The position numbers were made by a program, and so were the translations under genes. From a virus: a stretch of DNA of 28,645 nucleotides. Positions 6,887 to 24,499 of the stretch are shown here, in pieces (position 1 is the first letter of the stretch; every line of letters starts with the position of its first letter). The stretch is from positions 1-28,645 of IMG/VR virus record IMGVR_UViG_3300032331_001252. One strand, 5' to 3'. Below the pieces are notes generated by a model. The model had not been told where the DNA came from, made no database searches, and saw nothing but the letters and a program-made list of their open reading frames with translations.

Positions 6887-8065
6887 ATGGGTAAAAAGGT
6901 TGTTTCTGTTTGGTCTAATAGTCCATACCAGCCAACAGGTTATGGTGTGCAAGCCGGACTGCTTGTTGATCGTCTAAAGCGTGATGGTTACGATGTTGCT
7001 GCATTATCAAACTATGGTCTTGAAGGTAATAATGCGACGCTACAAACTCCGCATGGTGAGATCCCTCATTATGCTCGTGGAATGGAAGCCTACTCTAACG
7101 ATGTAGCACCAATGCACCATCATCATTGGCTACAGCAACATCCTGGTGCTAAAGACCTGTTTATTAGTCTTTATGATGTGTGGGTTCTTAAGGGTGCAGC
7201 GTGGGACAAGATGAATAACATCGCTTCTTGGACTCCGCTAGACCATGTGACTATGCCACCAGCCGTTGAGGCGTGGTTGCGTAAACCTAATGTGACACCT
7301 ATTGCTATGTCACCTTTTGGTCAGAAACAAATGAACGATATGGGCATTGATTGTCTGTATGTTCCCCACGCCATTGACACTAAAATTATGAAACCAACTT
7401 ATGACATTAATGGTGTGCCTACTCGTAAGTATCTTGGTTTTAGTGATGATGATTTTATTGTTGGTATGGTTGCGGCCAATAAAGCTTCAGGTTTAATTCA
7501 TCGAAAAGCATTTTCGGAAAATCTTATGGCTTTCAGTATTTTTGTGAAGTCACATCCTGATGCAAAACTTTATTTGCATACTGATCCTTTAGGTTCTGCT
7601 GGTGGTTGGAATCTTTTAACTTTGTGTGAAGCTGTAGGCATCCCTGAGTCGGCTATCCGCTTTCCTAACCTGGTTGATTACAAGTATGGAATTGCACCAG
7701 AAATATTAGCTGCATTTATGACAACTATGGATGTTGTATTGGCTACTTCGTATGGTGAAGGATTCGGTGTGCCAACTGTAGAGGCTCAAGCCTGTGGCAC
7801 TCGTGTTATTGGTTCTAATTGGGCTGCAACTCCTGATCTTGTTGCTGATAATTGTTTCCTTGTTGATGGTCAGCCTACTTGGGATTCAGGTCAAAATGCT
7901 TGGTGGTCTATTCCTTTAGTTCCGTCTATTGTTGAGGCTTTGAATCTTGCTTATGATGCACCTCGTGGTGTATCTACTACTTGTATAGACTTTGCTTCAC
8001 AATTCGATGTTGAAACTGTTTGGGACAAGTATTGGACTCCGGCATTGGATAAGTTGTTTGCATGA
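6887..8065 (+). CDS. Glycosyltransferase, GT4/GT-B type
   Basis: This 392-aa enzyme probably transfers a sugar from a nucleotide-sugar donor. The N-terminal Rossmann half opens with 'VVSVWSNSPYQPTGYGVQAGLLVDRLKRDGYDV'. The C-terminal half holds 'FIVGMVAANKAS...HRKAFSENLMAFSIFVKSHPDAKLYLHTD' and the donor-site EX7E motif in 'EGFGVPTVEAQACG' (about residues 291-299), as in GT4 enzymes. It lies between capsid and connector genes and is the first of three coupled sugar genes. The acceptor could be a virion protein or a host surface glycan; the sequence does not say which. Confidence 0.85.
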   Translation: MGKKVVSVWSNSPYQPTGYGVQAGLLVDRLKRDGYDVAALSNYGLEGNNATLQTPHGEIPHYARGMEAYSNDVAPMHHHHWLQQHPGAKDLFISLYDVWVLKGAAWDKMNNIASWTPLDHVTMPPAVEAWLRKPNVTPIAMSPFGQKQMNDMGIDCLYVPHAIDTKIMKPTYDINGVPTRKYLGFSDDDFIVGMVAANKASGLIHRKAFSENLMAFSIFVKSHPDAKLYLHTDPLGSAGGWNLLTLCEAVGIPESAIRFPNLVDYKYGIAPEILAAFMTTMDVVLATSYGEGFGVPTVEAQACGTRVIGSNWAATPDLVADNCFLVDGQPTWDSGQNAWWSIPLVPSIVEALNLAYDAPRGVSTTCIDFASQFDVETVWDKYWTPALDKLFA

Positions 8066-8709
8066 TTCCTGTTATGGGGTTTGCTACAGTCAAACGCTTT
8101 GATCTTGCAGATCGTTTAGTTCATTCGATTGATCATCCCGTAGAACATTTAGTTATTATTGATAATTCTGGTACTGGCTCATACAATCCGCCTAAGAATA
8201 CTAAAGTAAAAAATACTTGGGTGATTCCCATGCCATTTGGTATTGGCCTAGTGGGTGCATGGAATCTGATTGTTAAGTCCACACCGTATGCACCCTATTG
8301 GGTGTGCGTGAATGATGATGCGTGGTTTGAGCCTGGCGCATTAAAAAAAATTTGTCATGAAGTTGATCCGACAACCATGAACTTTCCAAGCATTATCCCT
8401 CATTGGTCTTGTGCCATTTTTGGTGAAGAAGTTGTTGCTAAAGTTGGCTTGTATGATGAGCGTTTCTATCCACTCTATTTTGACGATAACGATATGGAAC
8501 GCCGTATTAAACATGCTGGATTCGAGTTCAACTGGATTGACGCTAAAGTTCATCACGATAACAGCTCAACAGTAAACTCTGGCTTTCAGGATGCAAATGG
8601 TCGCACTTTTGGTAAGAATCAAAAACTTTTGGATGAAAAGATTGCATCCGATGACTTCTCTGAAGGTAACTGGAGTTTGCAAGTGCGAAGGGATAACCGT
8701 TGGGACTAA
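8062..8709 (+). CDS. Glycosyltransferase, GT-A (GT2-like)
   Basis: A 215-aa protein starting within the stop of the GT4 gene (ATGA). 'VEHLVIIDNSGTGSY' resembles the nucleotide-binding start of GT-A folds. 'GLVGAWNLIVKSTPYAPYWVCVNDDAWFEPGAL' carries a DD-type metal motif (about D85-D86), and 'LYDERFYPLYFDDNDMERRIKHAGFEFNWIDAKVHHDNSST' matches the acidic ED/W region and late His of GT2 enzymes. No membrane segment is present, so it should act in the cytoplasm. It is likely the partner of the preceding transferase on one glycan. Confidence 0.8.
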   Translation: MIPVMGFATVKRFDLADRLVHSIDHPVEHLVIIDNSGTGSYNPPKNTKVKNTWVIPMPFGIGLVGAWNLIVKSTPYAPYWVCVNDDAWFEPGALKKICHEVDPTTMNFPSIIPHWSCAIFGEEVVAKVGLYDERFYPLYFDDNDMERRIKHAGFEFNWIDAKVHHDNSSTVNSGFQDANGRTFGKNQKLLDEKIASDDFSEGNWSLQVRRDNRWD

Positions 8710-9128
8710 AAGTTTACACGGGCGGGACTTTCGACTTGTTTCACTCAGGCCATGTAGCGTTTCTGAAGCGATGTGCAGAGATCGGCTCTGTGATTGTTTC
8801 TTTGAATACTGACGAGTTTATTGAGACCTATAAGGGTAAGCCACCTGTAATGTCTTTTGCCGAGCGTGAAGCTGTGTTGTTGTCTTGTCGATATGTTGAT
8901 TCAGTAGTGGCTAACTATGGTTGTGAAGATTCAACGATTGCTATTGACCTGGTAAAGCCGGACATGGTTATTATTGGATCTGATTGGGCTAGGCGTGACT
9001 ACTATAAGCAGATGCGTTTTGATCAAGATTGGTTAGATGAACGCGGTATTGGTCTTTGTTACATACCTTACACAAATGGCATTAGCACTACAGGACTTAA
9101 GAAGCGTATTGTAGAGCAAGTAAAATAG
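8700..9128 (+). CDS. TagD-like cytidylyltransferase
   Basis: A 142-aa nucleotidyltransferase that should activate a phosphorylated alcohol or sugar with a nucleotide, as TagD makes CDP-glycerol. It has 'YTGGTFDLFHSGH' with the HxGH active site (residues 15-18), 'MSFAEREAVLLSCRYVD', 'KPDMVIIGSDW' and a late 'ISTTGLKKRI' matching the family's ISTT motif. The start is TTG at 8700, overlapping the GT2-like gene by 10 nt, with GAAGGGA (8687-8693) as ribosome binding site. The exact substrate is unknown. A second, different enzyme of this fold lies at 26197-26631. Confidence 0.85.
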   Translation: MGLKVYTGGTFDLFHSGHVAFLKRCAEIGSVIVSLNTDEFIETYKGKPPVMSFAEREAVLLSCRYVDSVVANYGCEDSTIAIDLVKPDMVIIGSDWARRDYYKQMRFDQDWLDERGIGLCYIPYTNGISTTGLKKRIVEQVK

Positions 9129-19096: not shown

Positions 19097-19130
19097 CCCC
19101 CGTGAGTCTACGCAACTTGCGGGGGTTCTT
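19097..19130. terminator. Bidirectional terminator between late genes and whiB
   Basis: CCCCCGTGAG (19097-19106) pairs with CTTGCGGGGG (19116-19125), two pairs being G:T, followed by TTCTTATTT on the plus strand. It sits between convergent genes, so it can end both the rightward late transcript and leftward whiB. The T-run is better for the rightward direction. Confidence 0.8.
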
Positions 19131-19452
19131 ATTTAAGTTGTTGTGACTGTTTAGCAAACCTGATTAGTTCTTGGCGTTCACGAGTTGTGAGTCCACCCCA
19201 AATGCCGTATTCTTCTTTCGCTTCAAGAGCGTATTCCAGGCATAAATCTCTCACGGGACATAAAGCACAAATTTGTTTGATCATGTGTCGTGTTTTGCGT
19301 GACTCAATGTTTTCGGCTTCTTCGTACATCATGTCTGGGAATGATTGACAGGCCACTCCCCCTTGTTCTTCGATAACTTTGGTAAGTTCGTAGAACTTCT
19401 TTTGGGCTTTGTTTGATAAATGTCCGTCTATGAGCATAGAATCACGATACAC
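19129..19452 (-). CDS. whiB: WhiB-family transcription regulator
   Basis: A 107-aa iron-sulfur regulator, the only clear leftward gene. Four cysteines (C35, C62, C65, C71; the last three in 'ICALCPVRDLC') match the [4Fe-4S] ligand set, and 'GIWGGLTTRERQ' (from residue 83) is the WhiB turn that contacts the sigma factor. The C-terminal 'RFAKQSQQLK' is basic. The family is confined to actinobacteria and their phages, so it identifies the host phylum. GTG 19452 or ATG at residue 6 could be the start; neither has a strong ribosome binding site. It probably controls phage or host promoters. Confidence 0.95.
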   Translation of the reverse strand: MYRDSMLIDGHLSNKAQKKFYELTKVIEEQGGVACQSFPDMMYEEAENIESRKTRHMIKQICALCPVRDLCLEYALEAKEEYGIWGGLTTRERQELIRFAKQSQQLK

Positions 19453-21530: not shown

Positions 21531-21899
21531 ATGGGTGCTTGTATTCGTTGTGGTTTAGAGTATTTATCTGAGATAGCAACTGAAAGGGCGTTAGAAGAGG
21601 GCCGCAAAATTGTTTGCGCGGATTGCCGACGATCTAAAGTGAAAGTTATCAAGTATTGGATTGATGGGGTTGCTACTTTTTGTCGCCCGTGGCATGGAGA
21701 TTTTGATGCTGACGATTATCCGATTGATGATAAGGGTGTCCGGTTTACTGGTGAGGTTGCGTTGTGTGGTCACAAGGATTGCATAGCTTTTGAGCATCGC
21801 CCAGGTATGCAAGTACCAAGAAAAAATAAGGTTAGGGTGCATGAAATGGTGTCTATGGAGTCTTTTATTGCTGTTGCTGAAGCTCGTGGTCAGTTATGA
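21531..21899 (+). CDS. Zinc protein, HNH-related (paralog 1)
   Basis: A 122-aa protein with an N-terminal zinc ribbon ('CIRCG...CADCRR'), the core 'YWIDGVATFCRPWHGDFDADDYPIDDKG' and a late 'ALCGHKDCIAFEHRPG', which resembles the Cys/His end of some HNH nucleases. The same order of motifs appears at 24236-24499, so these two genes are paralogs. A nuclease or DNA-binding role is inferred from the zinc ligands. The 3' end overlaps the methyltransferase start by ATGA. Confidence 0.7.
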   Translation: MGACIRCGLEYLSEIATERALEEGRKIVCADCRRSKVKVIKYWIDGVATFCRPWHGDFDADDYPIDDKGVRFTGEVALCGHKDCIAFEHRPGMQVPRKNKVRVHEMVSMESFIAVAEARGQL

Positions 21900-22453
21900 A
21901 AATTGGTTCGTTGTTTAGTGGTTATGGTGGTTTAGATCAGGCTGTTGAGAAGGTTACTGGTGGCAAGGTGGTGTGGCATTGTGAGTGGGATGATGCGCCG
22001 TCAAAGGTTTTGGCTGCTCGTTATCCTGGTGTACCAAATTATCGTGATGTTTCCGAGGTTGATTGGGAATCGGTTGAGCCTGTAGACATTTTGACAGGCG
22101 GTTTTCCATGTCAAGATTTAAGCCTTGCAGGTAAAAGGGCAGGGTTGAAAGAGGGTACTCGTTCCGGTTTGTGGAGTGAGTTTTTTAAAGCTATTACTAT
22201 TTTGAAACCTAGATTGGTGGTTATTGAAAATGTCAGAGGATTATTGTCAGCATCAGCCCATAGCGGAAGTGGACTCGGTGACGGGTTTGTGGTTGAAAGC
22301 GCAGGAGATCCCCCTCTTCGGGCCATTGGTGCTGTTCTCTCAGACCTTTCCAGCATCGGGTACGATGCAAGGTGGGAAGGTGTACGAGCTGCCGATGCAG
22401 GAGCACCTCACAACCGATTCAGGGTCTTTATCATCGCCTATCCCCGAAGATAG
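21896..22453 (+). CDS. C5 cytosine methyltransferase, catalytic part
   Basis: A 185-aa protein holding the N-terminal motifs of DNA C5 methyltransferases: motif I 'SLFSGYGGLD', motif IV 'GGFPCQDLSLAG' with catalytic C72, motif VI 'VIENVRGL', and motif VIII 'GAPHNRFRVFIIAYP'. Full enzymes continue with a target-recognition domain and motifs IX-X. Here the frame stops at TAG 22451-22453, and those parts lie in the +1 frame of the overlapping gene at 22230-23420. The end reads TAT CCC CGA AGA TAG, so a +1 slip on CCCC (22442-22445) would join both. Split gene, programmed slip and assembly error are all possible. Confidence 0.9.
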   Translation: MKIGSLFSGYGGLDQAVEKVTGGKVVWHCEWDDAPSKVLAARYPGVPNYRDVSEVDWESVEPVDILTGGFPCQDLSLAGKRAGLKEGTRSGLWSEFFKAITILKPRLVVIENVRGLLSASAHSGSGLGDGFVVESAGDPPLRAIGAVLSDLSSIGYDARWEGVRAADAGAPHNRFRVFIIAYPRR

Positions 22454-23420
22454 CATGTTCCGCACTCCACAAGCTAAAGAAGGTGAAGGTGGAGCAATCT
22501 TTGAAGATGTAAAACGTGATCGTGGAAATCATGTCATGGTTCGCGATCAGGTTGCACAGCTGGCTTTGCAAAATGGTTTTCCTGTTTCAGAAGGTCTAAC
22601 TGATGCGCTACTGCCTACACCTAACACTATGGAACATCGTGAGATTAAAACTCCTGAGCAAATTGCTGAATTGAAAGCCAAATCGCCTGGCGGGTATCGT
22701 AACTTGCGTGAATCAGTAGTAAACGAGCTGCTACCTACCCCGATTGTTCGTGACTATAAGGATGGTTCTGCAGCTCAAGAACGTGATGGGAAAGTTTCGA
22801 CTGATACGGTTGCCAGGGCAATCTTCAATAGCGGAGAAGTTCTTTTAGGCACTCCACGAACATCATCAGCTAACTCACCTAGTAGCAAACAAGTAGAAAA
22901 TGGTGCAGATAAAGCCAGACTTGAAGATCAGGTGAGATCAGCTAATGAAGGTTACATTAGTTGGGGTAAGTTTGAACCTGCTATCCGCCGTTGGGAACAA
23001 GTGCTTGGCAGACCAGCACCAGCACCAACAAAACCTGACGGTAAAGACGGTAACCATCGTCTTGCTGCCGAATTCACGGAATGGATGATGGGGCTCGATT
23101 TTGGTCATGTGACGAACCCTGAGCTTGGTTTAACTCGTGTAGAAATGTTGAAACTTTGCGGTAACGGGGTTGTGCCTCAACAGGCAGAGTTGGCTTTGAG
23201 AATGTTGCTTGATGGTCATGTTCCAGAATTTAATGCGAATCCGGTGATGCCTACTTTGACAACTAACGGTACTGGCCGTCACTCCGCTGGTTATGATTCG
23301 TTAGGCACTCTGCAAATGATTGAAGTTGCAAAAGGGATTTTACCTCGTGAATATGATTCATGGGATCAAATAAACGGAAAAATACCTGAAGAATGGCGTG
23401 ATGGAAAGGCTAAAAAATAA
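22230..23420 (+). CDS. C5 methyltransferase, target/motif IX-X part
   Basis: A 396-aa product in the +1 frame, overlapping the catalytic part by 224 nt. The overlap encodes 'FSQTFPASGTMQGGKVYELP', a conserved-looking segment of phage methylase-linked proteins. Repeated 'LPTP' units follow ('ALLPTPNTMEH', 'ELLPTPIVRDYKDGS'). The C-terminus has 'FEPAIRRWEQVLGRPAPAPTKPDG', 'EFTEWMMGLDFGHV' (motif IX-like) and 'LCGNGVVPQQAELALRMLL' (motif X). It probably supplies sequence recognition and completes the fold. ATG 22230 has GGTGG upstream; TTG 22224 is an alternative start. Confidence 0.8.
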   Translation: MSEDYCQHQPIAEVDSVTGLWLKAQEIPLFGPLVLFSQTFPASGTMQGGKVYELPMQEHLTTDSGSLSSPIPEDSMFRTPQAKEGEGGAIFEDVKRDRGNHVMVRDQVAQLALQNGFPVSEGLTDALLPTPNTMEHREIKTPEQIAELKAKSPGGYRNLRESVVNELLPTPIVRDYKDGSAAQERDGKVSTDTVARAIFNSGEVLLGTPRTSSANSPSSKQVENGADKARLEDQVRSANEGYISWGKFEPAIRRWEQVLGRPAPAPTKPDGKDGNHRLAAEFTEWMMGLDFGHVTNPELGLTRVEMLKLCGNGVVPQQAELALRMLLDGHVPEFNANPVMPTLTTNGTGRHSAGYDSLGTLQMIEVAKGILPREYDSWDQINGKIPEEWRDGKAKK

Positions 23421-24235: not shown

Positions 24236-24499
24236 GTGGATGATAACAAAGTTATTTGTGAACGCTGTGGTGCTTCTTGGGCGGTTAATCAAGAAAAACG
24301 ACACCGAACTGACTTGTTATGTTTTTCGTGTCGTGTGAAACCTGCTGTTGTTATTCAGTATGGTGATTTGAGGTGTCAGCCGTGGAATGGTGATTTTGCG
24401 GATGATGGTGTTACCCCGTTACTTGATGGGGAGATCTTTATGCCAGGTTTCAGGGTTTGTAAACATTTAGATTGTTGCAACCCTAAGCATGTGGTGTAG
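24236..24499 (+). CDS. Zinc protein, HNH-related (paralog 2)
   Basis: An 87-aa protein, GTG start, with 'CERCGASW...LLCFSCR', 'VVIQYGDLRCQPWNGDFADDGVTP' and the ending 'VCKHLDCCNPKHVV'. The order and spacing match the protein at 21531-21899. 'C.H.DC....H' resembles the final zinc site of HNH nucleases ('CNPKH'). It is shorter, ending right after that site. No good ribosome binding site is visible, so the start is uncertain. DNA binding or cleavage is inferred. Confidence 0.65.
   Translation: MDDNKVICERCGASWAVNQEKRHRTDLLCFSCRVKPAVVIQYGDLRCQPWNGDFADDGVTPLLDGEIFMPGFRVCKHLDCCNPKHVV

Follow-up and report, generated by a model that had tools for sequence, protein, structure and literature searches.

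The window, which is the entire 28,645-base IMG/VR virus record, carries on its plus strand two overlapping open reading frames (ORFs) that between them hold the motifs of a C5 DNA methyltransferase. The frame 0 product, the N (alpha-like) chain, extends through motif VIII, and its stop codon follows directly after this motif by ORF reading. The +1 product, the C (beta-like) chain, lies in a frame that is open from 22206, has its first ATG at 22230 and terminates at 23418-23420. This ATG, embedded in the codons of motif VI, is the putative start of the C chain in the window. The locus consists of the following parts:

21896..22453, plus strand: N (alpha-like) chain, frame 0, 185 aa, C5 methyltransferase motifs I-VIII (PF00145, PHROG_363 and M.HhaI matches)
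22106..22114, plus strand: motif IV PCQ with the catalytic cysteine, N residues 71-73 (sequence reading; conserved in the A5 consensus)
22226..22234, plus strand: motif VI ENV, N residues 111-113, whose AAT-GTC codons hold the +1 ATG
22230..23420, plus strand: C (beta-like) chain, +1 frame, 396 aa from the putative start ATG 22230 (PHROG_1008 match; tblastn)
22230..22453, plus strand: dual-coding overlap, 224 bp (+1 stop depletion, +1 column identity)
22335..22394, plus strand: conserved +1 peptide FSQTFPASGTMQGGKVYELP, family form FSETWPTSGMMRNGxxYELP (two glycines invariant in alignment A4)
22400..22444, plus strand: motif VIII GAPHNRFRVFIIAYP in frame 0 (sequence reading); the same bases read EHLTTDSGSLSSPIP in the +1 frame
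22606..22866, plus strand: variable LLPTP/LLGTP-type repeat modules of the C chain, presumed target-recognition region (T170 and P171 nearly invariant in A4)
23070..23114, plus strand: motif IX-like EFTEWMMGLDFGHVT (E284, M287, G288 and G292 invariant in A4)
23154..23186, plus strand: motif X LCGNGVVPQQA (G311, N312, G313 and V314 invariant in A4)
23232..23420, plus strand: C-terminal extra module ending AKGILPREYDSWDQ... (low pLDDT)

Motif IX is assigned from short patterns and conservation and, for the window, also from the fused structural model described below. A module similar to the C-terminal extra one (..EIARGELPREFTSWDE) is located in the +1 frame of one relative, L246.

Small zinc-binding, HNH-like proteins of similar make-up (CGHKDCIAFEHRPG, CKHLDCCNPKHVV) lie on either side of the methyltransferase pair, at 21531-21899 and 24236-24499, neither of them with a Pfam match. 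Elsewhere in the window, a group 1 glycosyltransferase gene and a glycosyltransferase-like gene lacking a Pfam match (6887-8709) have capsid-type genes on one side and head-tail-type genes on the other; a cytidylyltransferase gene (8700-9128) comes next. A second cytidylyltransferase-like gene (PF01467, 26182-26631) is distant from the first. On the minus strand at 19129-19452, a WhiB transcription factor gene (PF02467) points to an actinobacterial host.

Family membership of the two chains

The N chain matches the Pfam family DNA_methylase (PF00145) with an E-value of 3.7e-36 over profile positions 1-161 of 324, PHROG_363 with 8.6e-70 and M.HhaI with 3e-14 (phmmer). It carries motifs I, IV (PCQ), VI (ENV) and VIII on one catalytic domain, while motifs IX and X, which complete the fold, reside on the C chain. 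The C chain matches PHROG_1008, annotated 'DNA methyltransferase', with an E-value of 1.7e-54 over positions 68-322 of 329. Pfam returns no match for it, and its profile retrieves nothing credible from the PDB by sequence. The 75 residues of the C chain encoded within the overlap, searched alone, match PHROG_1008 at profile positions 67-130 (E 2.4e-5). These matches bear out the sequence-only reading of the locus, which had described 224 bases (22230-22453) with family-like sequence in both frames, motif VIII GAPHNRFRVFIIAYP in frame 0, FSQTFPASGTMQGGKVYELP as a segment linked to phage methylases, and a +1 frame continuing to motifs IX-X.

Both chains are widespread, with the frame 0 chain found by tblastn in 1,518 phage records and the +1 chain in 571. 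Scans of IMG/VR with either chain yield 143 loci; in nearly all of them no more than about 20 codons separate motif VIII from the frame 0 stop, and the overlap with the +1 ORF is 191 bases or longer. The split arrangement recurs in more than 100 phage contigs and in many isolate genomes. A genome scan with the C chain returns no relative, and one with the overlap alignment A2 returns three actinobacterial loci, the broad overlap alignment A1 being too variable for scanning. A search for a stand-alone, non-overlapping +1 chain found none: all loci with the overlap peptide (80/80) hold it in the +1 register of a methyltransferase. The distant candidates, from Methylorubrum, Microcystis, Microbacterium, Bacteroides, Porphyromonas, Sulfitobacter and Stenotrophomonas, likewise lie in the +1 register of a methyltransferase.

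Selection on both frames and the start of the +1 chain

Selection was assessed on 68 non-redundant loci (<85% nucleotide identity), codon-aligned on frame 0, against 200 within-gene shuffles of synonymous codons that keep the frame 0 protein and codon usage. Between N residues 120 and 183 the +1 frame contains no stop codon at any of these loci, against 138.6 expected and a shuffle minimum of 114; in the upstream control, residues 2-110, it contains 413 against 380 expected. The -1 frame holds 223 stops in the overlap. Mean +1 column identity reaches 0.462 in the overlap against 0.271 expected (z 80), with a z of 21 upstream. Four-fold third-position diversity declines from 0.67 upstream to 0.49 in the overlap, and among 34 independent close pairs the third position of frame 0 changes less in the overlap (0.143 per site, down from 0.229) and the first position, the wobble base of the +1 frame, changes more (0.071, up from 0.052). 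The codon of Gly155 in frame 0 is GGG in 65 of the 68 loci, the codon that the conserved +1 SG of the FSQTFPASGTMQGGKVYELP peptide requires. Together, the stop depletion, the diversity and the substitution pattern are those expected under double coding, with selection acting on both frames across the shared bases. In the 68 relatives this double selection spans from approximately N residue 118 (22247) to the N stop.

Such a signal could be imitated by a shadow ORF, in which the +1 similarity is a by-product of frame 0 residues and codon bias and the real C start lies after motif VIII. The idea has some footing, given that frame 0 motif VIII in GC-rich genomes tends to yield a similar +1 peptide and that the +1 similarity is visible in single-ORF relatives. 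The shuffles, however, retain precisely the frame 0 protein and codon usage and still produce 138.6 stops where none is observed, and the depletion extends to genomes below 40% GC (0 stops against 9.8 expected from motif VI to VIII, and 0 against 20.8 from VIII to X). The control region from motif I to IV and the -1 frame are free of such depletion, and in two canonical methyltransferases that carry motif IX in frame 0 the +1 stops are about as frequent as expected. A shadow ORF is accordingly considered highly improbable.

The same data bear on the idea that the sequence contains an error or that a single-chain gene broke recently. Relatives with one ORF and motifs IX-X in frame 0 do exist (L004, L005, L011), as a broken gene would suggest, but many isolate genomes and over 100 contigs have the identical +1 register with zero +1 stops, and both frames are conserved, which refutes this explanation and leaves it a negligible probability. 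A single-base error is ruled out by the register shared among hundreds of genomes. Judged by these sequence comparisons, the overlap is neither an error nor a relic. The earlier argument against a simple frameshift error therefore stands, and the alignment and selection check proposed with it shows that relatives conserve and constrain both frames, not one alone.

A +1 start codon within the open +1 frame is present at every one of the 68 loci, at one of three sites, against a shuffle mean of 4.4 and a maximum of 11. The site at N residue 118 (GTG or ATG) serves 35/68 loci, the ATG at residue 112, inside the ENV of motif VI, serves 29/68 with the window among them, and a GTG at residue 90 serves the remaining 4/68. 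Starts at residue 118 often have a +1 stop immediately before them and an AGGGG-type Shine-Dalgarno sequence about 8 bases upstream, with a 4-base core in 71% against a background of roughly 15%; the residue-90 starts have a 5-base core in 4/4. An independent start is thus found at all 68 loci, with Shine-Dalgarno sequences at two of the three sites. No AAGGAGG core is present in the residue-112 class (0/29 members), so initiation there is less certain, including at the presumed start of the window.

Codon choice is skewed at these positions. Asn112 is encoded by AAT in 62/68 relatives, compared with 107/304 for other asparagines. The AGT codon of Ser118, which creates the +1 GTG, is used in 51/95 split loci against 13% of other serines, and in 48 of the 77 single-ORF loci having residue 118 against 6% of other serines.

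A programmed +1 ribosomal frameshift near the end of the N ORF (TAT CCC CGA) would deliver the same motifs as one fused methyltransferase. The CCC-C at 22442-22445 could let ribosomes slip by +1, no stop interrupts the fused reading, and its model is good. The tails of the N ORFs are nevertheless diverse, and a conserved slippery site before the N stop is lacking among the relatives, with CCC-C or a slippery last codon in just 14/68. A late slip, moreover, would work without a +1 frame that is open as far back as residue 118 and without conserved starts or Shine-Dalgarno sequences, and many relatives have a +1 stop right before the GTG at residue 118. Programmed frameshifting is for these reasons judged very unlikely.

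The preferred reading is that the locus is a true overlapping gene pair for one two-chain C5 DNA methyltransferase, to which we assign a probability of about 85%. It agrees with the earlier suggestion of overlapping genes in that both frames are constrained, over 100 phage contigs share the split and the +1 frame has its own start in 68/68 loci. It goes beyond that suggestion in the position of the start codon within motif VI and in the spread of the +1 chain through most of the related phage C5 methyltransferases tested.

Nested, split and fused forms in related phages

Many of the 80 overlap-peptide loci have a long frame 0 ORF. Such single-ORF relatives had been expected to have lost the +1 frame; this expectation was wrong, as a set of 114 genes contains 1 such stop against 94.5 expected. 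Along 131 non-redundant genes covering a range of GC contents, almost all of them found with the frame 0 chain and the others fetched one by one, the number of +1 stops is 405 before motif IV (about 408 expected), 53 from IV to VI (155 expected), 2 from VI to VIII (about 143 expected), 91 from VIII to X (250 expected) and 151 after X (113 expected). The -1 frame of these genes shows no stop depletion. The nested +1 ORF has a median length of 213 codons, and in 70/131 genes it contains the sole motif IX-like sequence (W-x-E-W-L-M-G-F-P-x-G-W type), with motif X in frame 0. This distribution was also read individually in phages of Bacteroides, Porphyromonas, Microcystis, Sulfitobacter, Stenotrophomonas and Paenibacillus, and the +1 protein nested in the Microcystis phage gene matches the C chain of the window with an E-value of 5e-9. 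Controls with motif IX in frame 0, from a Bacillus SPbeta-type phage and Klebsiella phage KP27, exhibit no +1 stop depletion.

Classified by motif content, 282 loci comprise 107 split forms, in which frame 0 ends after motif VIII, 73 nested forms with X in frame 0 and IX in the +1 frame, 75 fused forms with both IX and X in frame 0, and 27 unclear cases. Both motifs lie in the +1 frame, and neither in frame 0, at 73/282 loci. On a tree of 96 N chains the architecture labels need 7, 5 and 10 changes, and the forms have therefore switched repeatedly. The window falls within a well-supported clade of 23 split loci. The LLPTP modules occur in either frame among relatives, and in several fused relatives they start in the +1 frame and cross to frame 0 at a module boundary. 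Since frame 0 alone has IX and X in some relatives, a full set of motifs does not in every case depend on the +1 chain. Modules of apparent target specificity that are found in either frame provide a natural experiment on the origin and separation of overlapping genes.

A predicted +1 chain, nested and usually unannotated, is present in most of the related phage C5 methyltransferases tested, and for most such enzymes a second subunit, usually overlooked in annotation, is probable. A large class of phage C5 methyltransferases is likely to consist natively of two chains, the second of which (leader, LPTP modules and usually motif IX) would be nested in the +1 frame of the catalytic gene between about motif IV-VI and motif X. 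The pairing would be old, extending across phages of Actinobacteria, Bacteroidota, Cyanobacteria, Pseudomonadota and Bacillota, with motifs IX and X and the LPTP modules having moved between frames several times, giving rise to the split, nested and fused forms.

Several individual loci depart from the common forms. Two AT-rich loci from Lactococcus and Streptococcus phages (L426, 1501-2058; L430, 1501-2208) encode a short frame 0 methyltransferase without motif X and a +1 ORF of 169-227 codons with an NWGMMxNG-type peptide; motifs IX-X were not located in either. In phages Poenanya (L007, 1654-2209) and GigiOuiOui (L012, 2001-2550) the frame 0 chain changes frame near N residue 87-92 and the +1 chain persists, possibly reflecting a further split or decay. 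Three split loci (L163, L209, L232) stand isolated within mostly fused clades, which suggests that the C-terminal part has changed frame repeatedly and in recent times.

A probable two-chain enzyme and its known counterparts

For structure prediction, the window was read as one chain (P0001) by a +1 step after motif VIII, using an alignment that combined N and C chains with natural single chains; the model is an artificial single chain without the overlap-encoded leader. Its pLDDT is 84-97 over most of the N half and residues 350-440, with 91-97 at motif X. Residues 1-448 superimpose on M.HhaI residues 12-327 with Z 21.2 and an rmsd of 3.8 over 241 residues (VIA-align), the motif IX-like region of the C chain aligning as well, and the next-ranked families are other C5 methyltransferases. 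As the fused model covers full-length M.HhaI, the C chain would supply the part of the fold that is absent from the N chain, and the two very probably form one enzyme. Modelled alone, the C chain reaches a mean pLDDT of 56, with the overlap-encoded leader appearing as low-confidence strands.

In the proposed arrangement, frame 0 would yield the catalytic chain, containing the SAM-binding part, the catalytic PCQ, ENV and motif VIII. The +1 frame would be translated from its own start, located within the frame 0 gene at motif VI or shortly beyond it, into a second chain composed of the conserved leader peptide, the variable LPTP modules and motifs IX-X. The chains would then join as a complete methyltransferase, whose presumed role is to mark the DNA of the phage. 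Synthesis of the two chains, their binding and their joint activity are predicted from sequence, as are methylation as the function of the pair and the choice of DNA target by the LPTP modules. With two frames encoding two halves of one enzyme, their evolution is linked, and the pair offers a case that can be tested at the bench. If the two-chain reading is true, the frame 0 gene expressed alone would give an incomplete enzyme, and many phage enzymes may seem inactive or monomeric merely because the second chain is unannotated or unexpressed.

Few long same-strand overlaps with firm evidence that each frame is coding are known from dsDNA phages. Overlapping genes and C5 enzymes made of two chains are each a known kind. 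The small chain of M.EcoHK31I is encoded in an alternate frame of the gene for the large one. In that enzyme, motifs I-VIII and X belong to the large polypeptide and motif IX to the small one (Lee et al. 1995, cited in PMC3404938). The nested relatives, with X in frame 0 and IX in the +1 frame, have this same distribution, and it is found in 72-73 of the 282 relatives. The window differs from this description: its first chain stops after VIII and its second has IX together with X, in place of X on the large chain and IX alone on the small one. The predicted target recognition domain (TRD) is also placed differently, on the large subunit of M.EcoHK31I according to PMC3404938 and apparently on the +1 chain in the window.

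A closer counterpart to the split form is M.AquI, whose large subunit has motifs I-VIII and whose small subunit has the distal variable region and motifs IX-X (PMC3404938). Chain 1 of the window carries I-VIII and chain 2 the variable region with IX-X, a motif distribution split at the same place as described there. As far as that text goes, the large subunit of M.AquI, unlike the N chain, also has part of the variable region, and no dual-coding overlap under double selection is reported for it. Artificial C5 methyltransferases split between VIII and the TRD give the best complementation (PMC3404938).

A second protein out of frame in a phage methylase gene is likewise represented by the ShiLan domain, hidden in an actinophage methylase gene (PMC11855218). 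That insert is a homing HNH endonuclease of patchy distribution (PMC11855218), in contrast to the second frame of the window, which is the enzyme's own second half and is conserved family-wide. Phage ShiLan, with its HNH insertion in the gp65 methylase, also encodes a member of the present methyltransferase family, gp70 (L337, 1727-2896). In the literature searched, which mostly excluded subscription papers, no description of this dual-coding overlap was found; what appears to be new is that a large phage family has conserved such an overlap.

In existing annotation, the overlap is visible in pairs such as Vorrps genes 6 and 5, both annotated as overlapping 'DNA methylase' genes with an overlap of 209 bases, the +1 chain being of the same family (PHROG_1008). 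Many phage records omit one frame or trim the second gene to begin past the overlap, and the habit of annotating one frame leaves the second subunit absent or mislabelled in many of them. In Stenotrophomonas phage SOVA965 (L343, 1884-2384), the annotated DNA-cytosine methyltransferase is the +1 chain, and it is the frame 0 catalytic chain that is unannotated.
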